Below are positions 9,929-26,965 of a stretch of DNA of 29,994 bases, in pieces; positions within the stretch are counted from its first letter, which is position 1; each line of letters opens with the position of its first letter. Source of the DNA: a virus; IMG/VR virus record IMGVR_UViG_3300034107_001163, positions 1-29,994 of that record. One strand, 5' to 3'. A model generated the notes under the pieces. That model worked only from the letters and a program-made list of their open reading frames with translations. It did not search any database and was not told where the DNA came from. Both the position numbers and the translations under genes were made by a program.

Positions 9929-10996
9929 TTAATTTTCTTCTAAGATTTCAACATCTTGTAGAATTGTTCTAACCATTCTATCAACAATTAAATATGGATC
10001 TCCATTAGATGCTGGTCTTCTATCTTCAATATAACCAATCGCATTCGGATCATTAATAGTTGAAGGAATTCTAATAGATTTAGTTCTATCGCCAATACCC
10101 CATCCAAAATCTTTAATAGATGATGTTTCATTTGAACCAGTTAATCTAGCATCGTTGTTTTCGCCATAAACCACAATATGTTCAGTGTGTGTTTTTTCTA
10201 ATTTTTTGCACATCTCAATAGCAATCTCTTTCTTATTGACTTTATCTTCTCTGATAGTTTTGGTTGAAAAGTTAACGTGCATTCCTGATCCATTCCAATC
10301 ATTACCTTTAATTGGTTTTGGATCTAATACAATTGTATATCCATATTCTTCACTTAATCTGTGTAAGAAATATCTAGATACCCATAATTGATCAGCACCT
10401 TCTTCTGCGGTAACTGTTCCAATTTGATATTCCCATTGACCTAACGCTACTTCTGCATTGGTTCCACCAATTGCTAACCCTGCTAAAATACAAATCTCTG
10501 TGTGTTCTTCTACGAACTCTCTACCCGATACATTGCTAGAACCAACAGCGCAATAGTAATCACCTTGTTCTCTTGGTTCACCTTCTGTTGGCCATCCTAA
10601 TGGTTTGTTTGTTTTGTTGTCATAGATAAAATATTCTTGTTCCCAGCCCCAATTGGTCTCATCATCATATTTATACAATGCTTCCATCATTTTTGTTCTG
10701 GTGTTTGTCGTGTGTGGTGTTCCATCTGTATTATAAACATCACACAAAACAATAATAGAGTTCTTTACAAATGGATTTAAAAAGTAATTTTTCGGCATTA
10801 ATAACAATTCTGATTTAGATGTTTCTGCTTGATAAGTAGAAGAGCCATCGTAATTCCAAACCGGTGCTGATTTAGTACCTGTTTTATATTGTCTTAATAA
10901 ATCTTCGGTTACCCACTTAGACTTTGTAATTTTTGTTTTACTTCTAATTTGTTGAGTTTTAGATCCATCTAACCAAATATATTCTAATTTTATCAT
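9929..10996 (-). CDS. glnII: Glutamine synthetase, type II (GSII/GlnII)
   Basis: 355 aa, full length for the eukaryote-like GSII class. It makes glutamine from glutamate, ammonia and ATP. Visible motifs in order: WNYDGSSTYQA (substrate loop), SELLLMP, NWGWEQEYFIYD (metal-binding Glu), GDYYCAVGSS, GLAIGGTNAEVALGQWEYQIG (metal-binding Glu), NGSGMHVNFST (ATP), GENNDARLTG, FGWGIGDRTKSIRIP and YIEDRRPASNGDPY. No key motif is missing, so it is probably active. GSII genes occur in Bacteroidota, so transfer from a host is likely. In a phage it would act as an auxiliary metabolic gene supplying glutamine for nucleotide and protein synthesis. It has its own leader with hairpins and a divergent neighbour. 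Confidence 0.95.
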   Translation of the reverse strand: MIKLEYIWLDGSKTQQIRSKTKITKSKWVTEDLLRQYKTGTKSAPVWNYDGSSTYQAETSKSELLLMPKNYFLNPFVKNSIIVLCDVYNTDGTPHTTNTRTKMMEALYKYDDETNWGWEQEYFIYDNKTNKPLGWPTEGEPREQGDYYCAVGSSNVSGREFVEEHTEICILAGLAIGGTNAEVALGQWEYQIGTVTAEEGADQLWVSRYFLHRLSEEYGYTIVLDPKPIKGNDWNGSGMHVNFSTKTIREDKVNKKEIAIEMCKKLEKTHTEHIVVYGENNDARLTGSNETSSIKDFGWGIGDRTKSIRIPSTINDPNAIGYIEDRRPASNGDPYLIVDRMVRTILQDVEILEEN

Positions 10997-13736: not shown

Positions 13737-15455
13737 ATGGCATCATATAATTATTTCAATAACAATGCATCTGAGCAAACCTTTGGTATGCAAAATTCTG
13801 CGGTTGAGAATAAAGGGTTATTCAATAGAATATTAAGAAATCTTTCAAATCATGGAATGAACTATGATGATATGATTATCAGAAACCAAGTTGGTATTGG
13901 TATAAATGAAGATCCATATGCAGCAAAGGGTAACTCAATGTATGATTTCTTCTCACAAAGAGCTGTAGCATCTGTACTTAATAGAAAGTCTATTCCTTAT
14001 TTAGATAAATCATATAATGATAAAAGAAGAATTCTTAGAGAGTATTCTATAAAAGATGAGATTAGAGATTTTGTTAGTCAAGTTGCTGATGAGTGTGTTG
14101 TTTATAATGATGATAGAGACTTTTGTTCACCTAGACCAATTTCAAATGATTACTCACAAGATATAAAAGATAAATACCAACAGTATTTCGAAACTATTTA
14201 TAATAAATATGGTTTCTCTGATAGTATAACTGCTTGGAATATGATTAAAGACTTTTTAGTTGATGGATATGTTGCAATTGAGATCGTTTATGATGATAAG
14301 AAAAAGAACATTATTGCTTTTAATAGATTAAGACCAGAGACTATAGTTCCTGCTTATGAGCCTAATGTTGGTCACTTATGGATTCAGTTTCCTGAAGATC
14401 CACAATTAAGAAGAATATTCTTAGATTCACAAATTGTTTTCGTTTCATATTCTACACAAAATGATTTCTCAGAAACTTCTTATGTTGAGGGTTTAATCAA
14501 ACCTTATAACCAATTGAAAATATTAGAACAAACAAAAATTATGTTTAACATAATTAATGCTACTCTTTATCAAGAGTTCAAAATTCCGATCAAAGGTCTT
14601 TCTAGACAAAAAGCAGAAGAGCAAATTGGTCAACTTATTCATGATTATTCAGAAGAAGTTGAATGGGATGAAACTCTTGGTACATTAACACTTAATGGAT
14701 CTAAACACTTACCTTTCAATAAACAAATATGGTTTCCGGAAGGTGATGCTGGTTCTCCATCTATGGAATTGAAATCACCACAAGGGCACGATTTAAATGA
14801 AGATGGTATGTTGAAATGGTTTCACCAAGCACTTAAAAGAGCTAGTAAAATTCCATTAAATCGTTTCGAAGGTGAGAGTGGGGGTGGTAATTTAGTTACT
14901 GATGCAGCTGAGATGACAAGAGATGAGATTAAGTTCCATAACTTTATTGGTAGATTAAGAGCTAATTTTAGAGAGTTGATTGTTAAACCTATAAAGTTAC
15001 AAATGTTAATTGAATTTCCTGAATTGATAGAAGATGAAATGTTCTTAAATCAAATCGATGTTATATTCTATTCTAATCAAGTATTTGAAGAATGGAAAAA
15101 ATTAGGTAACTTAGAGAAAAAAGCAGGTATCGTCGGTACTTTACTTGGTGTTATGAATGGTGAGAAACCATATTTCCACATTGAGTATATTATGGATCAT
15201 ATATTTAAACTTACTCCTGAAGAAAAAGCAGAAAATCAAAAATACTGGGCGAAAGATGCCAGTGCAATTGGTTCTGGTGTTCCTGGTGAACCTGGTATGG
15301 AAGGTGGTGCTCCTGGTATGGAAGGTGGTGCTCAGGGTGGTGCTCAAATGGGTGCTGAGTCTCCAGTACAGGGCGGTGCTGAGGCTCCTGCACAAGCACA
15401 GGCTCCAGCACAAGGAGGTGCAGAAGCACCGGGTGGTGCTGAATTCGAATTCTAA
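13737..15455 (+). CDS. 20: Portal vertex protein, gp20-like
   Basis: 572 aa (T4 gp20 is 524). The protein forms the ring through which DNA enters and leaves the head. Recognisable features are the conserved central part (MIKDFLVDGYVAIEIVYD, then IIAFNRLRPETIVPAY), the LKWFHQALKRASKIPLNRF segment followed by a Gly-rich turn, and the helix FHNFIGRLRANFRELIVKPI. From about residue 515 a tail absent from T4 is added: Gly/Met/Glu repeats (GMEGGAP), then PAQAQ-type repeats ending EFEF. The same PAQAQ composition appears in the tagged protein at 832. The order portal, then protease-scaffold, then capsid follows T4, but here a minus-strand block interrupts it. Confidence 0.9.
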   Translation: MASYNYFNNNASEQTFGMQNSAVENKGLFNRILRNLSNHGMNYDDMIIRNQVGIGINEDPYAAKGNSMYDFFSQRAVASVLNRKSIPYLDKSYNDKRRILREYSIKDEIRDFVSQVADECVVYNDDRDFCSPRPISNDYSQDIKDKYQQYFETIYNKYGFSDSITAWNMIKDFLVDGYVAIEIVYDDKKKNIIAFNRLRPETIVPAYEPNVGHLWIQFPEDPQLRRIFLDSQIVFVSYSTQNDFSETSYVEGLIKPYNQLKILEQTKIMFNIINATLYQEFKIPIKGLSRQKAEEQIGQLIHDYSEEVEWDETLGTLTLNGSKHLPFNKQIWFPEGDAGSPSMELKSPQGHDLNEDGMLKWFHQALKRASKIPLNRFEGESGGGNLVTDAAEMTRDEIKFHNFIGRLRANFRELIVKPIKLQMLIEFPELIEDEMFLNQIDVIFYSNQVFEEWKKLGNLEKKAGIVGTLLGVMNGEKPYFHIEYIMDHIFKLTPEEKAENQKYWAKDASAIGSGVPGEPGMEGGAPGMEGGAQGGAQMGAESPVQGGAEAPAQAQAPAQGGAEAPGGAEFEF

Positions 15456-16476: not shown

Positions 16477-18015
16477 TTATTTTATTTTTTTTACAGGATA
16501 TCCATCGTTACCAAGAGCGATTGTTAATAACCTCATTGTCAAAATGTCGGAATAGCGCCGAATTGGCGAGGTAAAATGCGTATAGTCCTGAAAATCAAGG
16601 CCATAATGTGCAATTTCCTCAGTAGAATAGTAAGCTTTTTTCATAGATCTAATAACCAATGTGCTTAATATATTTTCTTCAGGAGTATCCTTTATTTTCT
16701 TGATAAGTTTATTTAATTCATCCTTTGTTGTTTCCGGGTCACTTATTTCTAATTCGTGTCCGAAATTAAGAGCAATCCTTTTCAACTGAAGTAATTTTTC
16801 ATCATCTGGCTCTGGGTGTACTCGATTAACACAAGGTAGTTCTTTTGATTTTATGAATTTAGCAACTTCTTTATTAGCAAGTAGCATATATTCTTCAATT
16901 AGTTTATTTGCATCTTTTTGCTCTTTGAAATAAACACCAAGTGGTTTACCATTTTCATCAAGATTGAATTTAACTTCTTTACCACCCATCTCAATAGAAC
17001 CATCTTTGATTCTTTGCTTTCTCATAACTTTTGCAATTTTATCCAATTCTAATATAATTGAATCTGTATCACTACCATCACCACCGTTTTCAATAACTTC
17101 TTGTGCTTGTTCATACGAGTAATCTTTGTCTACATTTATAATTGTTCTACCAAACCATTTTTTTGTTACTTTTCCTTTATCATCAATTCTGAATGTTGCG
17201 GTGTAACATAGTCTATCAGGTCCTGATTTCAAACTACATATACCATTACTCAATCTTTTTGGTAACATAGGTACACATCTATCTACTAAATATACAGAAG
17301 TGCCTCTTTTGTATGCTTCTTTGTCTAATTCGGTTTTTGGAGTTATATAGTGTGTAACATCTGCTATATTTATAGATATAAATCTTTCACCATTTATAAA
17401 CTCTAAACTTAAAGTATCATCCGCATCTTTCGAATCAAATGGATCTATACCGATTGTTGTTACATTTCTAAGATCTTTTCTTTTATCAATTTCTTTTTGT
17501 GATATTATTTCAGATACTAGTTCTGATTCATTTATCACTTCTTGTGGAAAATCAACCGGTAGACCATACTCATACATAATTGCATTCATTTCGGTCTCAT
17601 TCTCACCAACGGTTCCTAGAACTTTTATTATTCTAGCGATTGGAGATTTCATTCCTGGTTCCCATCTTTCAAATTCAACTAAAACTTTTTGATTATTCTC
17701 AGCGATGTGTTTTCCTTTTATATAGAAATCTGCTTTTATTTTTGGATTATCAACAACTACAAATGTATGATCTTTTTTAACTTGTGTTGTTCCGACAAAT
17801 TCGGTCTTAAATCTTTCGATTACTTCGGTTACTTTTGCTTCTAGTTTTTTTTCACCTTGGAATAATACAATTTTAACTTTGTCTAAGTGCAACGCAGTAC
17901 TTGTTCTTTTTTTATGAACAAAGAATTCTTTATTTTCTATTCTAATTGCACCGTTACCTGATGTGGAGAATTCAATTTGTGTTTCGAAAATATCTCCCTC
18001 GTTGTATTTACTCAT
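16477..18015 (-). CDS. rnr: RNase R N-terminal part: cold-shock domains and RNB catalytic core
   Basis: 512 aa from ATG 18015. A start at 18051 is possible, but MSKYNEGDIF is the natural beginning of the first OB domain. Residues about 1-130 hold two cold-shock/OB folds. The RNB core starts near 185: GIDPFDSKDADD supplies the four metal-binding Asp (191, 197, 199, 200) with family spacing. CVPMLPKRLSNGICSL, NRVHPEPDDEKL and YTHFTSPIRRYSD follow. It degrades structured RNA 3' to 5'. The protein stops at VKKIK just after the SPIRRY helix; the rest is encoded by the next gene. It starts within the end of the endonuclease fragment (8-base overlap). Confidence 0.9.
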   Translation of the reverse strand: MSKYNEGDIFETQIEFSTSGNGAIRIENKEFFVHKKRTSTALHLDKVKIVLFQGEKKLEAKVTEVIERFKTEFVGTTQVKKDHTFVVVDNPKIKADFYIKGKHIAENNQKVLVEFERWEPGMKSPIARIIKVLGTVGENETEMNAIMYEYGLPVDFPQEVINESELVSEIISQKEIDKRKDLRNVTTIGIDPFDSKDADDTLSLEFINGERFISINIADVTHYITPKTELDKEAYKRGTSVYLVDRCVPMLPKRLSNGICSLKSGPDRLCYTATFRIDDKGKVTKKWFGRTIINVDKDYSYEQAQEVIENGGDGSDTDSIILELDKIAKVMRKQRIKDGSIEMGGKEVKFNLDENGKPLGVYFKEQKDANKLIEEYMLLANKEVAKFIKSKELPCVNRVHPEPDDEKLLQLKRIALNFGHELEISDPETTKDELNKLIKKIKDTPEENILSTLVIRSMKKAYYSTEEIAHYGLDFQDYTHFTSPIRRYSDILTMRLLTIALGNDGYPVKKIK

Positions 18016-18397
18016 TTTTTTTATTCTTTTTTGAAATATTGTCAACTCCATATTTATCTATTAGAGTTTGTTTCATTTTTGACAACACCTTTTTATTTTG
18101 TATTGGATAATCAACTCCGAAGTTTTTTCTTAGAGTTTCCTTTCTTTTGACTTCGGAGCATTTTCTACAATAGTAGTCACCCCAATTATTATCATATTTT
18201 AAGTAGTTTTTATAGATGACATCTTTCTCTATACCACATCCATCACATTTACATTTTATTTTATAATGTGAGCCTTTTGGTAAAAGTTCTACAGGAATTA
18301 CTATAATTTCACCAATTGTTGTGTCATAACCTAAATCATCATAGTACTGATAATTTGATTCATTGACTTTAATTTCTATTTCTCTTGTTAATATCAT
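18008..18397 (-). CDS. Truncated homing endonuclease (DNA-binding part only)
   Basis: 129 aa. A four-Cys zinc-finger pattern (CKCDGCG at about 57, CRKCSE at about 87) is followed by two of the repeats seen in the intact endonuclease at 6852 (ETLRKNFGVDYPIQNKKVLS, then QTLIDKYGVDNISKK). The protein stops there, with no nuclease domain. Its last 8 bases overlap the RNase R start. It is probably a decayed mobile gene that now forms the head of the RNase R operon; a regulatory role is possible but unsupported. A TTTTTTATATACAATAAG element on the minus strand (18413-18430) may be its promoter. Confidence 0.7.
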   Translation of the reverse strand: MILTREIEIKVNESNYQYYDDLGYDTTIGEIIVIPVELLPKGSHYKIKCKCDGCGIEKDVIYKNYLKYDNNWGDYYCRKCSEVKRKETLRKNFGVDYPIQNKKVLSKMKQTLIDKYGVDNISKKNKKNE

Positions 18398-20799: not shown

Positions 20800-22512
20800 A
20801 TGTCACACATTAGAATAGACAACGCGAAAGCAACTAAGAAATGGGCTCCAGTTTTAGAAAACATGGGAGTAACAGGTGATAGAGTTGAATGGATGGCGGA
20901 ATACGCTGAATTTCACTCAATCAACGAAAACGCATACGTAAATGCTTCAAACGTAGGAGGTATGGGTGCAGTATTGAATCCAATAATTGGTGGTCAAGCA
21001 GGACAAACTTTAAACGCACTTGGTGCTGTAAATGGTTCAGGAGACGTAGGTCAAAACTTGTTACCAGTTGCAATGAAAATTGCTGCTCAAACAATCGGTT
21101 TAGATTTAGTAGCTGTTAAACCAACACCTGGTCCGAAAATCGATTTACTTTATATTGATTTCCAATATGATGATTCTAGATCAACTAACTCACAAGATGA
21201 GAGACCACAAGTTTTCAAATTAAAAGCTGATGGTTCAACTAATCAAACAGCTATTGCTAATCACATTAATGCTAATTTAGGTTCTGCTAACTTAAACTCT
21301 GGTGGTATCGTATCAGGTAGAGTATTTGTTGCTAACTTCGCAGGTAATAATGCATTAGCAAACACTGCAGGTGATATTGCTGCGCTTGAAGCAGGATCTA
21401 AAGCAGGTGTTTTAGAATTCTTAGGATTCTCAAGAGTAGATGGTTACCCAATGTTTAGAGCATACAGACAAGCAAACACTGCACACACTGGTGTTGGTGG
21501 TGGAGCTAATTCTCTTTGGTCTTTTGACGCAACAAGAAACTCTTTCAACCCAACACAATCTATGGCAGACCAAATTAACTATATTGGTACTGTTGCAGTA
21601 ACTGGAAATCCTGAGATACAATTAGTATCTGCATTAGAGGATCACATCCCAGGTTTCTCTGCTAACTGGACTGCTAATTTAGCAACTGGTGATTATCCAA
21701 TGGGTCGTCAAGCTGATGATGATTCTTATGCTGGAGTTATCGGACCAAAAATCTCTTCTAAAACTATCGCAGTTGGTACTATTGAAGTATCTTCAGCTTT
21801 AAGAAGAACAGAAATCGAAGATATCAAAGCAAACACAGGTATGGATATCGTTCAAAAAATGGAATCTATCCTTGTTAACGAATTGTCTCAAACAATTTCT
21901 AAACAAATCGTTGCTAAAATCTTCGAAATGGGTTCTTTAAATAGAACTAATGCTCCTGCTTTCGCTGGTACTCCTACTATCACTGGTCACACTATCTTTG
22001 ACTTAGATACTGCTTATGCTGGTACTGGTGTTGTTGGTGGTGAAACTACTCACGCTGTACAAAGAAAATTGATCACGAAAATTGCTCACGCTTCTAACTA
22101 CATCGCAACTGAGGGTCGTGTAGGACCTGCTCAATACCTTATCACAAATGGAGGTTTAGCAGCTGCTCTTCAAGACATCGCTGGTTACACAATTAACCCA
22201 GTTAGATCTAAATTAAACGGACAAGGTCAATTATACCCTGTTGGAACAATCGGAGATATCGCTATCTATGTTGATCCTTACATGAGATATAATGATAACA
22301 GAATCGTTTTAGGAAGAAAAAATAACCCAGATCAACCAGGTATCATTTTCGTACCTTACTTGATGGCACAATCTATCTCAGTTATTTCTGAAGCGACTTT
22401 CGCACCAAGAATGTTACTAAGATCTAGATATGCTGTTGCAGAAGTTGGATGGTTCCCACAAAAACAATTTATGACTATCCAAGTTAAAGATGCTTCTCAA
22501 TTATTGAACTAA
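20800..22512 (+). CDS. 23: Major capsid protein, gp23-like
   Basis: 570 aa (T4 gp23 is 521). It starts with a helical region containing KKWAPVLENMG, comparable to T4 NKWKPLLEGEG. SINE at 40-43 followed by Asn is the likely maturation site, comparable to FLTE-A in T4, so the mature chain would begin at residue 44. The rest has HK97-fold features: a Gly/Ala-rich entry, TIEVSSALRRTEIEDIKA, YLITNGGLAAALQDI and IAIYVDPYMRYNDNR. Codon choice is the most biased of the window, and an inverted-repeat promoter and strong terminator flank the gene, as expected for the most abundant virion protein. Confidence 0.93.
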   Translation: MSHIRIDNAKATKKWAPVLENMGVTGDRVEWMAEYAEFHSINENAYVNASNVGGMGAVLNPIIGGQAGQTLNALGAVNGSGDVGQNLLPVAMKIAAQTIGLDLVAVKPTPGPKIDLLYIDFQYDDSRSTNSQDERPQVFKLKADGSTNQTAIANHINANLGSANLNSGGIVSGRVFVANFAGNNALANTAGDIAALEAGSKAGVLEFLGFSRVDGYPMFRAYRQANTAHTGVGGGANSLWSFDATRNSFNPTQSMADQINYIGTVAVTGNPEIQLVSALEDHIPGFSANWTANLATGDYPMGRQADDDSYAGVIGPKISSKTIAVGTIEVSSALRRTEIEDIKANTGMDIVQKMESILVNELSQTISKQIVAKIFEMGSLNRTNAPAFAGTPTITGHTIFDLDTAYAGTGVVGGETTHAVQRKLITKIAHASNYIATEGRVGPAQYLITNGGLAAALQDIAGYTINPVRSKLNGQGQLYPVGTIGDIAIYVDPYMRYNDNRIVLGRKNNPDQPGIIFVPYLMAQSISVISEATFAPRMLLRSRYAVAEVGWFPQKQFMTIQVKDASQLLN

Positions 22513-24045: not shown

Positions 24046-24406
24046 GGGGGTGTCATAGATTCGCCTAGCAGATTGGTGGTGATTATGCAGGTATCGGGTT
24101 GTCTAGTGTCCGATTTATAAATTAAGAGATAACGTCGTAAATGGCAAAACAAATGAAGTAGGAACTCGTGAAGACTTAGTAGCGACCCTAAAAGCAATTG
24201 GAGTTAACACTCCAGAGTTGGTTTAATAAGAGAGCCAATCGAAAAAATTCTCCGACTGTATCACGCAGTAAATGTGAAAACCATTTTGTTGAACTTTGGG
24301 TTAAAATCAACTATTTTGTAAGTGTAAGAAAAACTTACTAAGCCTGTGAAGATTAGTTATTAACAACTGAGTAGTACATCCCGGGCAGTGCGGGATCACT
24401 TCCACA
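24046..24406 (+). ncRNA. ssrA: Transfer-messenger RNA (tmRNA) with long tag
   Basis: About 361 nt. The acceptor stem GGGGGUG (24046-24052) pairs with CACUUCC (24397-24403) and keeps G3-U70, the alanine identity pair, with A at 24404; CCA is not encoded. The D-region GAUUCG follows. Pseudoknot 1 is complete: AUCGG/CCGAU (24093-24097, 24110-24114) and GUUGUCU/AGAUAAC (24098-24104, 24127-24133). Helix 2 pairs GCAGGU (24087-24092) with GCCUGU (24342-24347). The tag frame runs from about 24143 to UAAUAA at 24224-24229, which sits in the loop of helix 5 (UUGGU/GCCAA, 24218-24222 and 24234-24238), as in E. coli. The tag is about 27 aa, beginning GKTNEV and ending NTPELV. tmRNA rescues stalled ribosomes. 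The T-loop is abnormal. Confidence 0.88.
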
Positions 24407-24430
24407 AGTGTCAGAGCGATCTGACTTTTT
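24406..24430 (+). terminator. Terminator directly after tmRNA
   Basis: AAGUGUCAGA, GNRA loop GCGA, UCUGACUUUUU, with one U-U mismatch in the lower stem. It starts at the last base of the RNA. Confidence 0.75.
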
Positions 24431-24431
24431 A

Positions 24432-24466
24432 CACCTCACTTCCTAAACGGGAGTGAGGTGTTTTTT
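24432..24466 (+). terminator. Second, stronger terminator
   Basis: CACCTCACTTCC / GGGAGTGAGGTG: twelve pairs including one G-U, a 5-base loop and six T. Two terminators in tandem suggest that tight insulation of the tmRNA matters. Confidence 0.92.
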
Positions 24467-24841: not shown

Positions 24842-25351
24842 ATGATAGAAAAATTTGAAGGTAGATGGCGTTTCTTATCGAATTTCCATCCTTGTAAAAT
24901 AGAACACCAAGGAATTACTTATCCTTCCGTAGAACACCACTACGTTGCTATGAAGTGTAATACTTCTCAATACTTTAATGGTAATCAATATACCGTTGGT
25001 GATTTTAGAGAAATCATTGCTAAAACGGTAAGCGCAGCGGTTGTTAAAAAAATGGGACAACAAATGAAAGTAAGATCTGATTGGGATGAAAAGAAATTAG
25101 ACTTTATGAATTGGGCGGTTCGTGAGAAATTTAAACAAGAAGATTTAAAAGAATTACTTTTATCCACAGAAGATCTACCTATAATTGAAGGGAATTTTTG
25201 GCACGATGTCTACTGGGGCCAATGCTCTTGTGATAAGTGTAAAGGTAAAGGTGAAAATCATCTTGGTAAAATACTTATGAAAGTAAGAGATGAGATAAAA
25301 GGAGTAAAAAGACCAGATAGTCTTGGGGATTTTCTCAATCAAAGTCGGTAA
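24842..25351 (+). CDS. NADAR-family N-glycosidase (YbiA-like)
   Basis: 169 aa. Residues 4-40 (FEGRWRFLSNFHPCKIEHQG, then YPSVEHHYVAMK) carry the family signature: the F.G....LSNF start and the catalytic S-x-E-H motif (Glu31). NFWHDVYWGQC and NHLGKILMKVRDE complete it. CSCDKC between them could bind zinc, as in other phage members. YbiA cleaves riboflavin precursors. NADAR proteins also act on ADP-ribosyl compounds, including removal of ADP-ribose from guanine in DNA in DarT-type toxin systems. In a phage this could counter ADP-ribosylating or NAD-depleting defence. The end overlaps the convergent gene by 17 bases. Confidence 0.85.
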   Translation: MIEKFEGRWRFLSNFHPCKIEHQGITYPSVEHHYVAMKCNTSQYFNGNQYTVGDFREIIAKTVSAAVVKKMGQQMKVRSDWDEKKLDFMNWAVREKFKQEDLKELLLSTEDLPIIEGNFWHDVYWGQCSCDKCKGKGENHLGKILMKVRDEIKGVKRPDSLGDFLNQSR

Positions 25352-26035: not shown

Positions 26036-26965
26036 ATGAGCATAATATCATACTTTGGCGGAAAAGCAAACTTCCAATCATTCATCACACCAAACATTCC
26101 TAAGGATTGTACAACCTATGTTGAACCATTCTCTGGATCATTTGCAATCTATTTAGATTCTAAATTAGAATTTAATACAGTTGTATTTAACGATCGTAAC
26201 AGACACCAAGCAAACTTAATTAGATGTTGTGCAAGTCCATTAGAATTCTTACCAGAGTTAAAAGCACTTTTAGCACCAGGTGGTCTTTTATATACAGAAG
26301 TAACAACACCAGAAGAAAAATGGGACTTCTATAAAGCGATTTATAGAGATTACATTAGAAACACATTCTTAGATGATATGGATTTTGAGATAGGTGATTT
26401 TAAGGTTGCTGCTATTTATGCATTCTTGATCACATCTTCGTTTTCTAGTGTTTATCCAAGAGGTGGTGGATTCACTGGTTACAAAAAAGCAAAAGATAAG
26501 TTAAATCTAACTATTCTTATGAATAAATTAGAGAAAAACAAATATACTGAGAGATTACAAAAGATTTCAGAGTTCAATAACTTAGATTTTGAAGAAGTTA
26601 TCCGTATGCACGATTCCGAAGATACATACATCTATTTAGACCCACCATACGCTCGTTTTAACGACGTTAAAAACGATGATGATGGTAGACGTTTATTTTG
26701 GTATGGATGTGACGATGAGAACACGTTTGGTGTTGCTTCTCATAGAAGATTATTAGAGTTGTTGAAAACTACTAAATCTAGATGGTCTTTATCTTACTAT
26801 TACTTTCCTTTATTGGAAGAAATTTTACCAAAAGATAAATACATTTGGACTTCAAAAGAATTCCATAGACCATCATCTGTAATTAAAACAGAAGGTGTTG
26901 AAAAAGAAAAGGGTATTGAATTGTTAATTATGAATTACGACCCAGAGACAGGAGAAAGGGTGTAA
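26036..26965 (+). CDS. dam: N6-adenine DNA methyltransferase, Dam (D12) family
   Basis: 309 aa. SIISYFGGKANF at the start and TYVEPFSGSFAIY (residues 27-39) form the AdoMet-binding motif I. YLDPPYARF (Asp202-Tyr205 = DPPY) is the catalytic motif IV, and SLSYYYFPLL follows. This order (motif I, target recognition, DPPY) is that of Dam and T4 Dam. It transfers a methyl group to adenine, often in GATC; the recognised site is not deducible. It may protect phage DNA from host restriction. It ends one base before the next ATG, so the two genes are linked. Confidence 0.9.
   Translation: MSIISYFGGKANFQSFITPNIPKDCTTYVEPFSGSFAIYLDSKLEFNTVVFNDRNRHQANLIRCCASPLEFLPELKALLAPGGLLYTEVTTPEEKWDFYKAIYRDYIRNTFLDDMDFEIGDFKVAAIYAFLITSSFSSVYPRGGGFTGYKKAKDKLNLTILMNKLEKNKYTERLQKISEFNNLDFEEVIRMHDSEDTYIYLDPPYARFNDVKNDDDGRRLFWYGCDDENTFGVASHRRLLELLKTTKSRWSLSYYYFPLLEEILPKDKYIWTSKEFHRPSSVIKTEGVEKEKGIELLIMNYDPETGERV

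Follow-up and report, generated by a model that had tools for sequence, protein, structure and literature searches.

The question raised by the locus at 24046–24406 of the window (the whole stretch of viral DNA analysed, 29,994 nucleotides) is whether it encodes a working phage tmRNA and, if so, what becomes of the proteins that receive its long tag. The preliminary description recognized a real tmRNA here, and about 70 loci bear this out through homology, covariation and conserved gene order. The mature one-piece tmRNA (ssrA) is 359 nt long and lies on the plus strand at 24046..24404. The start proposed initially was correct; the mature 3′ end is placed at 24404 instead of 24406, this being the discriminator A, after which the gene in the window continues CAA and not CCA.

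ARAGORN reported neither a tRNA nor a tmRNA in the window, and Rfam 15 returned nothing at its cut-offs and no tmRNA family at E ≤ 5 for the region. Sub-threshold Rfam matches there (GlmZ, CRISPR repeats) were discarded as chance. The search with a tmRNA covariance model, suggested at the outset as a check, thus found no match in the window itself, and RF00023 aligned end to end on a relative (L023, 359–725) from the first to the last model position and with the exact RNA ends, at 16.2 bits (E 0.002), far below the family cut-off of 47 bits.

The set of related loci was built by scanning 2.9 million viral contigs for two conserved motifs and by a profile search. The family comprises about 70 viral loci on contigs of up to 476 kb and belongs to the same lineage as two ~640-kb "Mahaphage" genomes. 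A BLASTN search for distant matches in 50,697 phage records revealed the same RNA in two only, the unannotated huge-phage genomes LR745206.1 (634,780 bp) and LR756502.1 (642,428 bp). The capsid-tmRNA-NADAR-methylase order is fixed across the relatives, and in the window two intrinsic-terminator-like hairpins (24410–24425 and 24431–24461, plus strand) lie 3′ of the tmRNA. No published description of this RNA or its tag was found in a literature search that left out most subscription journals.

Other genes of the window encode a T4-like portal (13737–15455), a gp23-type major capsid protein (20800–22512) and a Dam-like D12 DNA methylase (26036–26965); a glutamine synthetase-like gene (9929–10996, minus strand) is situated amid the phage structural region. 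The NADAR-domain gene (24842–25351, plus strand) belongs to an N-glycosidase family and shows a weak match to an anti-phage NADAR family; in 57 related loci such a gene follows the tmRNA. Dense phage tRNA arrays were seen in L003, L005 and L009, with Asp, Gln, Lys and Phe isoacceptors repeated and mostly no encoded CCA.

The features on which the RNA was first recognized, the pseudoknot 1 (PK1) pairing, the G3-U70 pair of the acceptor and UAAUAA in the helix 5 loop, are all present, the acceptor and PK1 in the covariation alignment and H5 by direct reading. All coordinates in the RNA refer to the plus strand. The 7-bp acceptor stem is formed by GGGGGUG (24046..24052) and CACUUCC, the latter with the discriminator A occupying 24397..24404 (covariation, helix 1), and in the window it contains G4·U69 in addition to G3·U70. 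G3·U70 was found in 22/23 aligned rows, the exception being L016, the start of which is misaligned by two columns. The relatives show compensatory changes in the stem, with AU, GC, GU or CG at column 7 and UA or AU at column 8. The two strands of helix H2 (24065..24092, columns 23–50, and 24341..24375) were delimited by RNAalifold. PK1 (24093..24133; covariation, helices 4 and 5) consists of stem one, AUCGG 24093–24097 with CCGAU 24110–24114, and stem two, GUUGUCU 24098–24104 with AGAUAAC 24127–24133, the outer three pairs of which are poorly kept in relatives. Helix H5 (24217..24239) pairs GUUGGU 24217–24222 with GCCAAU 24234–24239 and holds the stop codons UAAUAA (24224–24229) in its loop; its equivalents in relatives were read by eye. 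PK2 (24256..24277, CUG/CAG and UCAC/GUGA; covariation, helices 6 and 7) and the PK4 stem followed by the tmRNA-typical CUAAGCCUGU (24318..24338; covariation, helix 8) complete the structure. H2, PK1, PK2 and PK4 are supported in the homologue alignment, in which PK3 was not made out.

With no structure supplied, RNAalifold recovered the acceptor, the long H2, a PK1 stem, a PK2 stem, PK4 and the T arm. The 64 named pairs, pseudoknotted ones included, were standard in 95.4 % of cases across 23 distinct homologues. Two-sided compensatory cells numbered 109 in comparison to 30.9 ± 4.2 in shuffles (0/500), with 25 of the 64 pairs showing two-sided changes, and sliding the 3′ partners by 1–3 columns lowered the pairing to 34–48 %. 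The single-sequence fold (z −0.25, not significant) was uninformative alone. The gene is not permuted: the 5′ strand of the acceptor precedes the tag and the 3′ strand follows it. The conserved parts, mostly with compensatory changes, are those serving alanylation (the G3·U70 acceptor), SmpB/EF-Tu docking (the stacked T arm), template switching (PK1 and the resume codon) and termination (the stop in the H5 loop).

The T arm (24378..24396) has a 6-bp stem, with two-sided changes in 4/6 pairs, and the loop GGCAGUG, which is of the alpha type and not UUCRANN. The stem adjoins the acceptor strand directly and covaries, UA, CG, AU and GC replacing one another at the same positions around a constant GGCRGUR loop. 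This loop was found in 59/59 scored loci and the canonical UUCRANN in none. The D-loop analogue UCAUAGAUUCGC (24053..24064), read directly against the RF01849 consensus, resembles the alpha-type AAUAGGAUCGAC. The consensus loop is UUCRANN in RF00023 and that of the T arm in RF01849 is GGCgGUA; UUCRANN does not define all tmRNAs, since those of RF01849 have a GGCRGUA-type loop. The idea that the GGCRGUA T loop is in itself a new feature was dropped, as two-piece tmRNAs of Alphaproteobacteria have this loop as their consensus. What is unusual is an alpha-type loop inside a standard-order one-piece RNA whose ~640-kb relatives have Bacteroidetes as their predicted hosts (PMC7162821). The phages' own tRNAs have a UUCRA loop in 22/25 cases and for the most part encode no CCA, which marks the GGCRGUA loop as peculiar to the tmRNA. 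The encoded 3′ ends of the latter are ACAA in 47 loci, ACUA in 8 and ACCA in 4.

The motif scan also revealed the same alpha-type T loop in the permuted phage tmRNAs L237, L240 and L243, all matching RF01849, and on two other viral contigs with a one-piece tmRNA, L218 (1833–2133) and L242 (8709–9057). The L218 tmRNA has a short tag, NDEYEYALVA, and was missed by ARAGORN. Permuted tmRNA genes of alpha and beta type are present on the viral contigs L237, L240, L243 and L245, the one of L243 in a tRNA array.

The tag reading frame (24137..24223) comprises 29 codons, VNGKTNEVGTREDLVATLKAIGVNTPELV; it opens with the resume codon GUA at 24137, has no start codon at its head and closes with UAA at 24224. 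The tag had been described as unusually long, which is correct, and as having about 27 codons, which is not: the count is 29 because the frame resumes at GUA 24137, in homology with tags starting (A/V/L/I)-N-(D/G). The resume motif of the family, (V/L)N(G/D), matches (A)ND of E. coli and other megaphage tags. A short alternative frame, GCA AAA CAA AUG AAG UAG, has a PK1 spacing nearer to that of E. coli and was rejected because the long frame is conserved and the short one is not. The 8–15 codons initially quoted for most bacteria are indeed typical, although the published range is wider, 8–35 residues (PMC3968760), the commonest length being 10 (PMC11915505). A tag of 29–31 residues is therefore long, yet precedented.

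The 68 loci contain 34 distinct tags of 29–31 residues, and the length differences stay in frame. The other two frames are interrupted by stops in 20/20 sequences, and pN/pS is 0.58 for the whole frame and 0.53 for the part before H5. On the evidence of these sequences, the tag is under selection as a peptide. Its body, NEVGTREDLVAALQNN, is more conserved than its end, with the exception of the final residue.

The end NTPELV had been taken to lack a degradation signal, a claim that goes too far in view of the relatives: every one of the 34 distinct tags ends in V (25) or A (9), PELV being one ending among several, with eight different residues at position −2. The other endings include LAVA, LVVA, LVIA, LATV, LMAV, PATV, ELETA and EELQFA, and among these LAVA, LVVA, LVIA, ELETA and EELQFA are close to ClpX-type ends. 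V-ended tags like PELV would be weak ClpX ends in E. coli. The tag variants LVA and AAV serve as degradation tags in this species (PMC9382460). The suggestion that rescued proteins might escape degradation finds no support; given the ClpC-like unfoldase and, in most cases, ClpP encoded by the phages, a switch to another protease is no less probable than the lack of any.

Among the partner genes, those for SmpB and Clp are unlinked to the tmRNA. SmpB (PF01668) is present in 4/4 clade records of at least 385 kb, each time with an intact GKKxxDKR tail, and the one SmpB tested passes the NCBIfam SmpB equivalog cut-offs. A Clp AAA+ protein is encoded in 8/8 megaphage records, from the clade and others; the one clade protein compared has its best match in B. 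subtilis ClpC/MecB and keeps the VGF loop, which binds ClpP. ClpP itself was detected in 6/8 clade records searched. Lon was considered as the partner protease and rejected, no Lon gene being present in the 8 megaphage records. The window encodes an RNase R-like exoribonuclease with CSD2 and RNB domains (16477..18051, minus strand; PF00773 343 bits), which scores 499 bits with TIGR02063, under the equivalog cut-off of 598. The gene lies about 7.6 kb upstream of the tmRNA, and in 14 related loci an RNase R-like gene is found at −7.2 to −9.6 kb. RNase R is present in 3/4 large clade records; G002, which is a fragment, gave no match to ClpP or RNase R. Recruitment of RNase R by tmRNA-SmpB is established (PMC3968760). 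The contig of the window, a 30-kb fragment too short to tell, contains no SmpB or Clp gene.

The best explanation, and a likely one, is that the phages possess a trans-translation and clearance pathway of their own, in which a functioning tmRNA would cooperate with phage SmpB, RNase R and Clp protease. During infection the phage tmRNA-SmpB complex would rescue ribosomes stalled on broken mRNAs, the nascent chain would gain Ala plus 29–31 residues and the non-stop mRNA would be removed by phage RNase R. The tagged proteins would then pass to a Clp protease (probably ClpCP encoded by the phage itself), which may recognize the conserved Val/Ala end together with the longer conserved body of the tag. 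Transcription, charging, tagging and the reading of the tag by phage ClpCP are predicted from sequence. The tag is probably a degron for this ClpCP, a role favoured over escape or re-routing because the V/A end is fixed and the Clp genes are present. It speaks against the pathway as a whole that RNase R and ClpC/ClpP may have other functions in these phages.

A more far-reaching proposal can be put forward only tentatively: the phages might run an orthogonal quality control with a tmRNA, SmpB, RNase R and ClpCP of their own, in which the 29–31-residue tag is a private degron, read by the phage unfoldase and poorly by that of the host. If so, the products of stalled ribosomes would, in infected cells, be handled by the phage machinery alone.

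It is rather unlikely that a working tmRNA spares or re-routes the tagged proteins. In that case the tag body would bind some other receptor, for instance a chaperone or a phage structure, with the V/A end only incidental. The tag body NEVGTREDLVAALQNN, kept better than the end apart from the last residue, and the distance of PELV from LAA would suit such a role, but the last residue is V or A in 34/34 tags, as in a C-terminal degron, the more distant megaphage tmRNAs retain AVAA, LVLA or RMAA ends, and the phages have genes for ClpC and, in most cases, ClpP. That the RNA acts as a decoy against the host tmRNA is very improbable. Phage DS6A encodes a tag-less tmRNA-like RNA that inhibits host tmRNA, with an effect reported in E. 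coli (PMC11915505), yet a decoy would need neither a selected frame of 29–31 codons nor a stop in H5 nor a phage SmpB. There is hardly any likelihood that the locus is a structured leader or a small-protein mRNA resembling a tmRNA: the missing Rfam and ARAGORN calls in the window would agree with this, but the acceptor and T arm covary, the conserved frame has no start codon at its head and opens with the resume motif (V/L)N(G/D), the CUAAGCCUGU element is present, RF00023 aligns end to end on L023, and SmpB co-occurs. A tmRNA gene once captured from a host and now in decay, to which the high divergence and the two G-U pairs in the acceptor stem of the window might point, has an equally negligible chance, being largely refuted by the covariation counts, with compensatory changes, frame and synteny kept over about 70 loci.

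The preferred reading, that of a phage-owned pathway, changes how these genomes are seen. By its anatomy the RNA is a tmRNA, strongly diverged and phage-borne, and hence not a new kind of RNA. New are the standard order combined with an alpha-type elbow and a 29–31-residue tag in an RNA missed by the usual finders, and the presence in the same phages of SmpB and ClpC, in most of them also of ClpP and RNase R. Surveys of phage tmRNAs depend on ARAGORN and on Rfam or BLAST (PMC7162821, PMC9004378, PMC11915505). The huge-phage study deals with tmRNA and SmpB in general terms, with tmRNA called by ARAGORN, and Clp is absent from its main text (PMC7162821). The SmpB genes of the clade would look orphan, since its tmRNA is invisible to ARAGORN and to Rfam/BLAST; the present finding supplies their tmRNA partner, also in the two ~640-kb genomes. 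The finding also shows that an elbow of alphaproteobacterial type can occur in a tmRNA of standard order, and it provides a testable natural case of a tag drifted from LAA beside phage-encoded ClpC and ClpP.

Compared with the one-piece tmRNAs of RF00023, the phage RNA shares the order of parts, the G3·U70 acceptor, H2, PK1, the tag, the H5 stop loop, the later pseudoknots and the CUAAGC element. It differs in the T loop (GGCRGUA versus UUCRANN), in a D-loop other than GGAUUCGAC, in a tag of 29–31 codons versus about 10 and in a score far under the family cut-off. With the alphaproteobacterial two-piece tmRNAs of RF01849 it has in common the GGCRGUA T loop and a D-loop of AUAG-AUCG type, whereas the phage RNA is unpermuted, with the acceptor strands in standard order in one transcript. 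The tmRNA of methylophage Melnitz is likewise phage-borne, but it is a permuted two-piece RNA, detectable by ARAGORN and accompanied by a glutamine riboswitch, and no phage SmpB is mentioned in the available part of that account (PMC9004378). Mesoplasma florum also has a long tag that does not end in LAA, its protease partner having changed to Lon (PMC9382460), whereas in the phages no Lon was found and ClpC, usually with ClpP, is encoded.

Further parallels come from other megaphages. SmpB was detected by tblastn in 15 Lak phages and in the 636-kb (LR756504.1) and 735-kb (LR756501.1) genomes. The tmRNAs of Lak-C1, Lak-B8 and the 636-kb record exceed the Rfam cut-off and that of the 735-kb record is a sub-threshold full-length match; ARAGORN found none of the four. 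All four share with the window family a phage SmpB in the same genome and the resume motif (L/I)N(D/G). The Lak tags, read directly as LNDDEI(D/E)FRMAA, differ in having 12 codons, and Lak-C1 has a canonical T loop. The tmRNA of LR756504.1 (L128 1501–1857, minus strand), just 5′ of which a tRNA-Met gene was observed, has the 26-codon tag LNDNVNSFEQSILNELFAPVEMAVAA, ending MAVAA, and a GUCGUA loop on a 6-bp stem, neither UUCRA nor GGCRGUA. That of LR756501.1 (L134 1272–1844, minus strand, 21 bits; acceptor GGGCUCG/CGGGUCC with G3·U70) has the 35-codon tag INGDYKMNAEDMMSIPTSLTGKVATESFVEDLVLA, ending DLVLA, and differs by a group I intron (RF00028, 96 bits) after UUUGA in its T loop (UUUGA/AU). 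Long tags are thus shared by these two and the window family. The comparison suggests a lineage of phage tmRNA-SmpB pairs, joining the Lak phages, the 636-kb and 735-kb genomes and the family described here, in which the tags would have lengthened and their ends drifted in the presumed direction from -AA to -(V/A).
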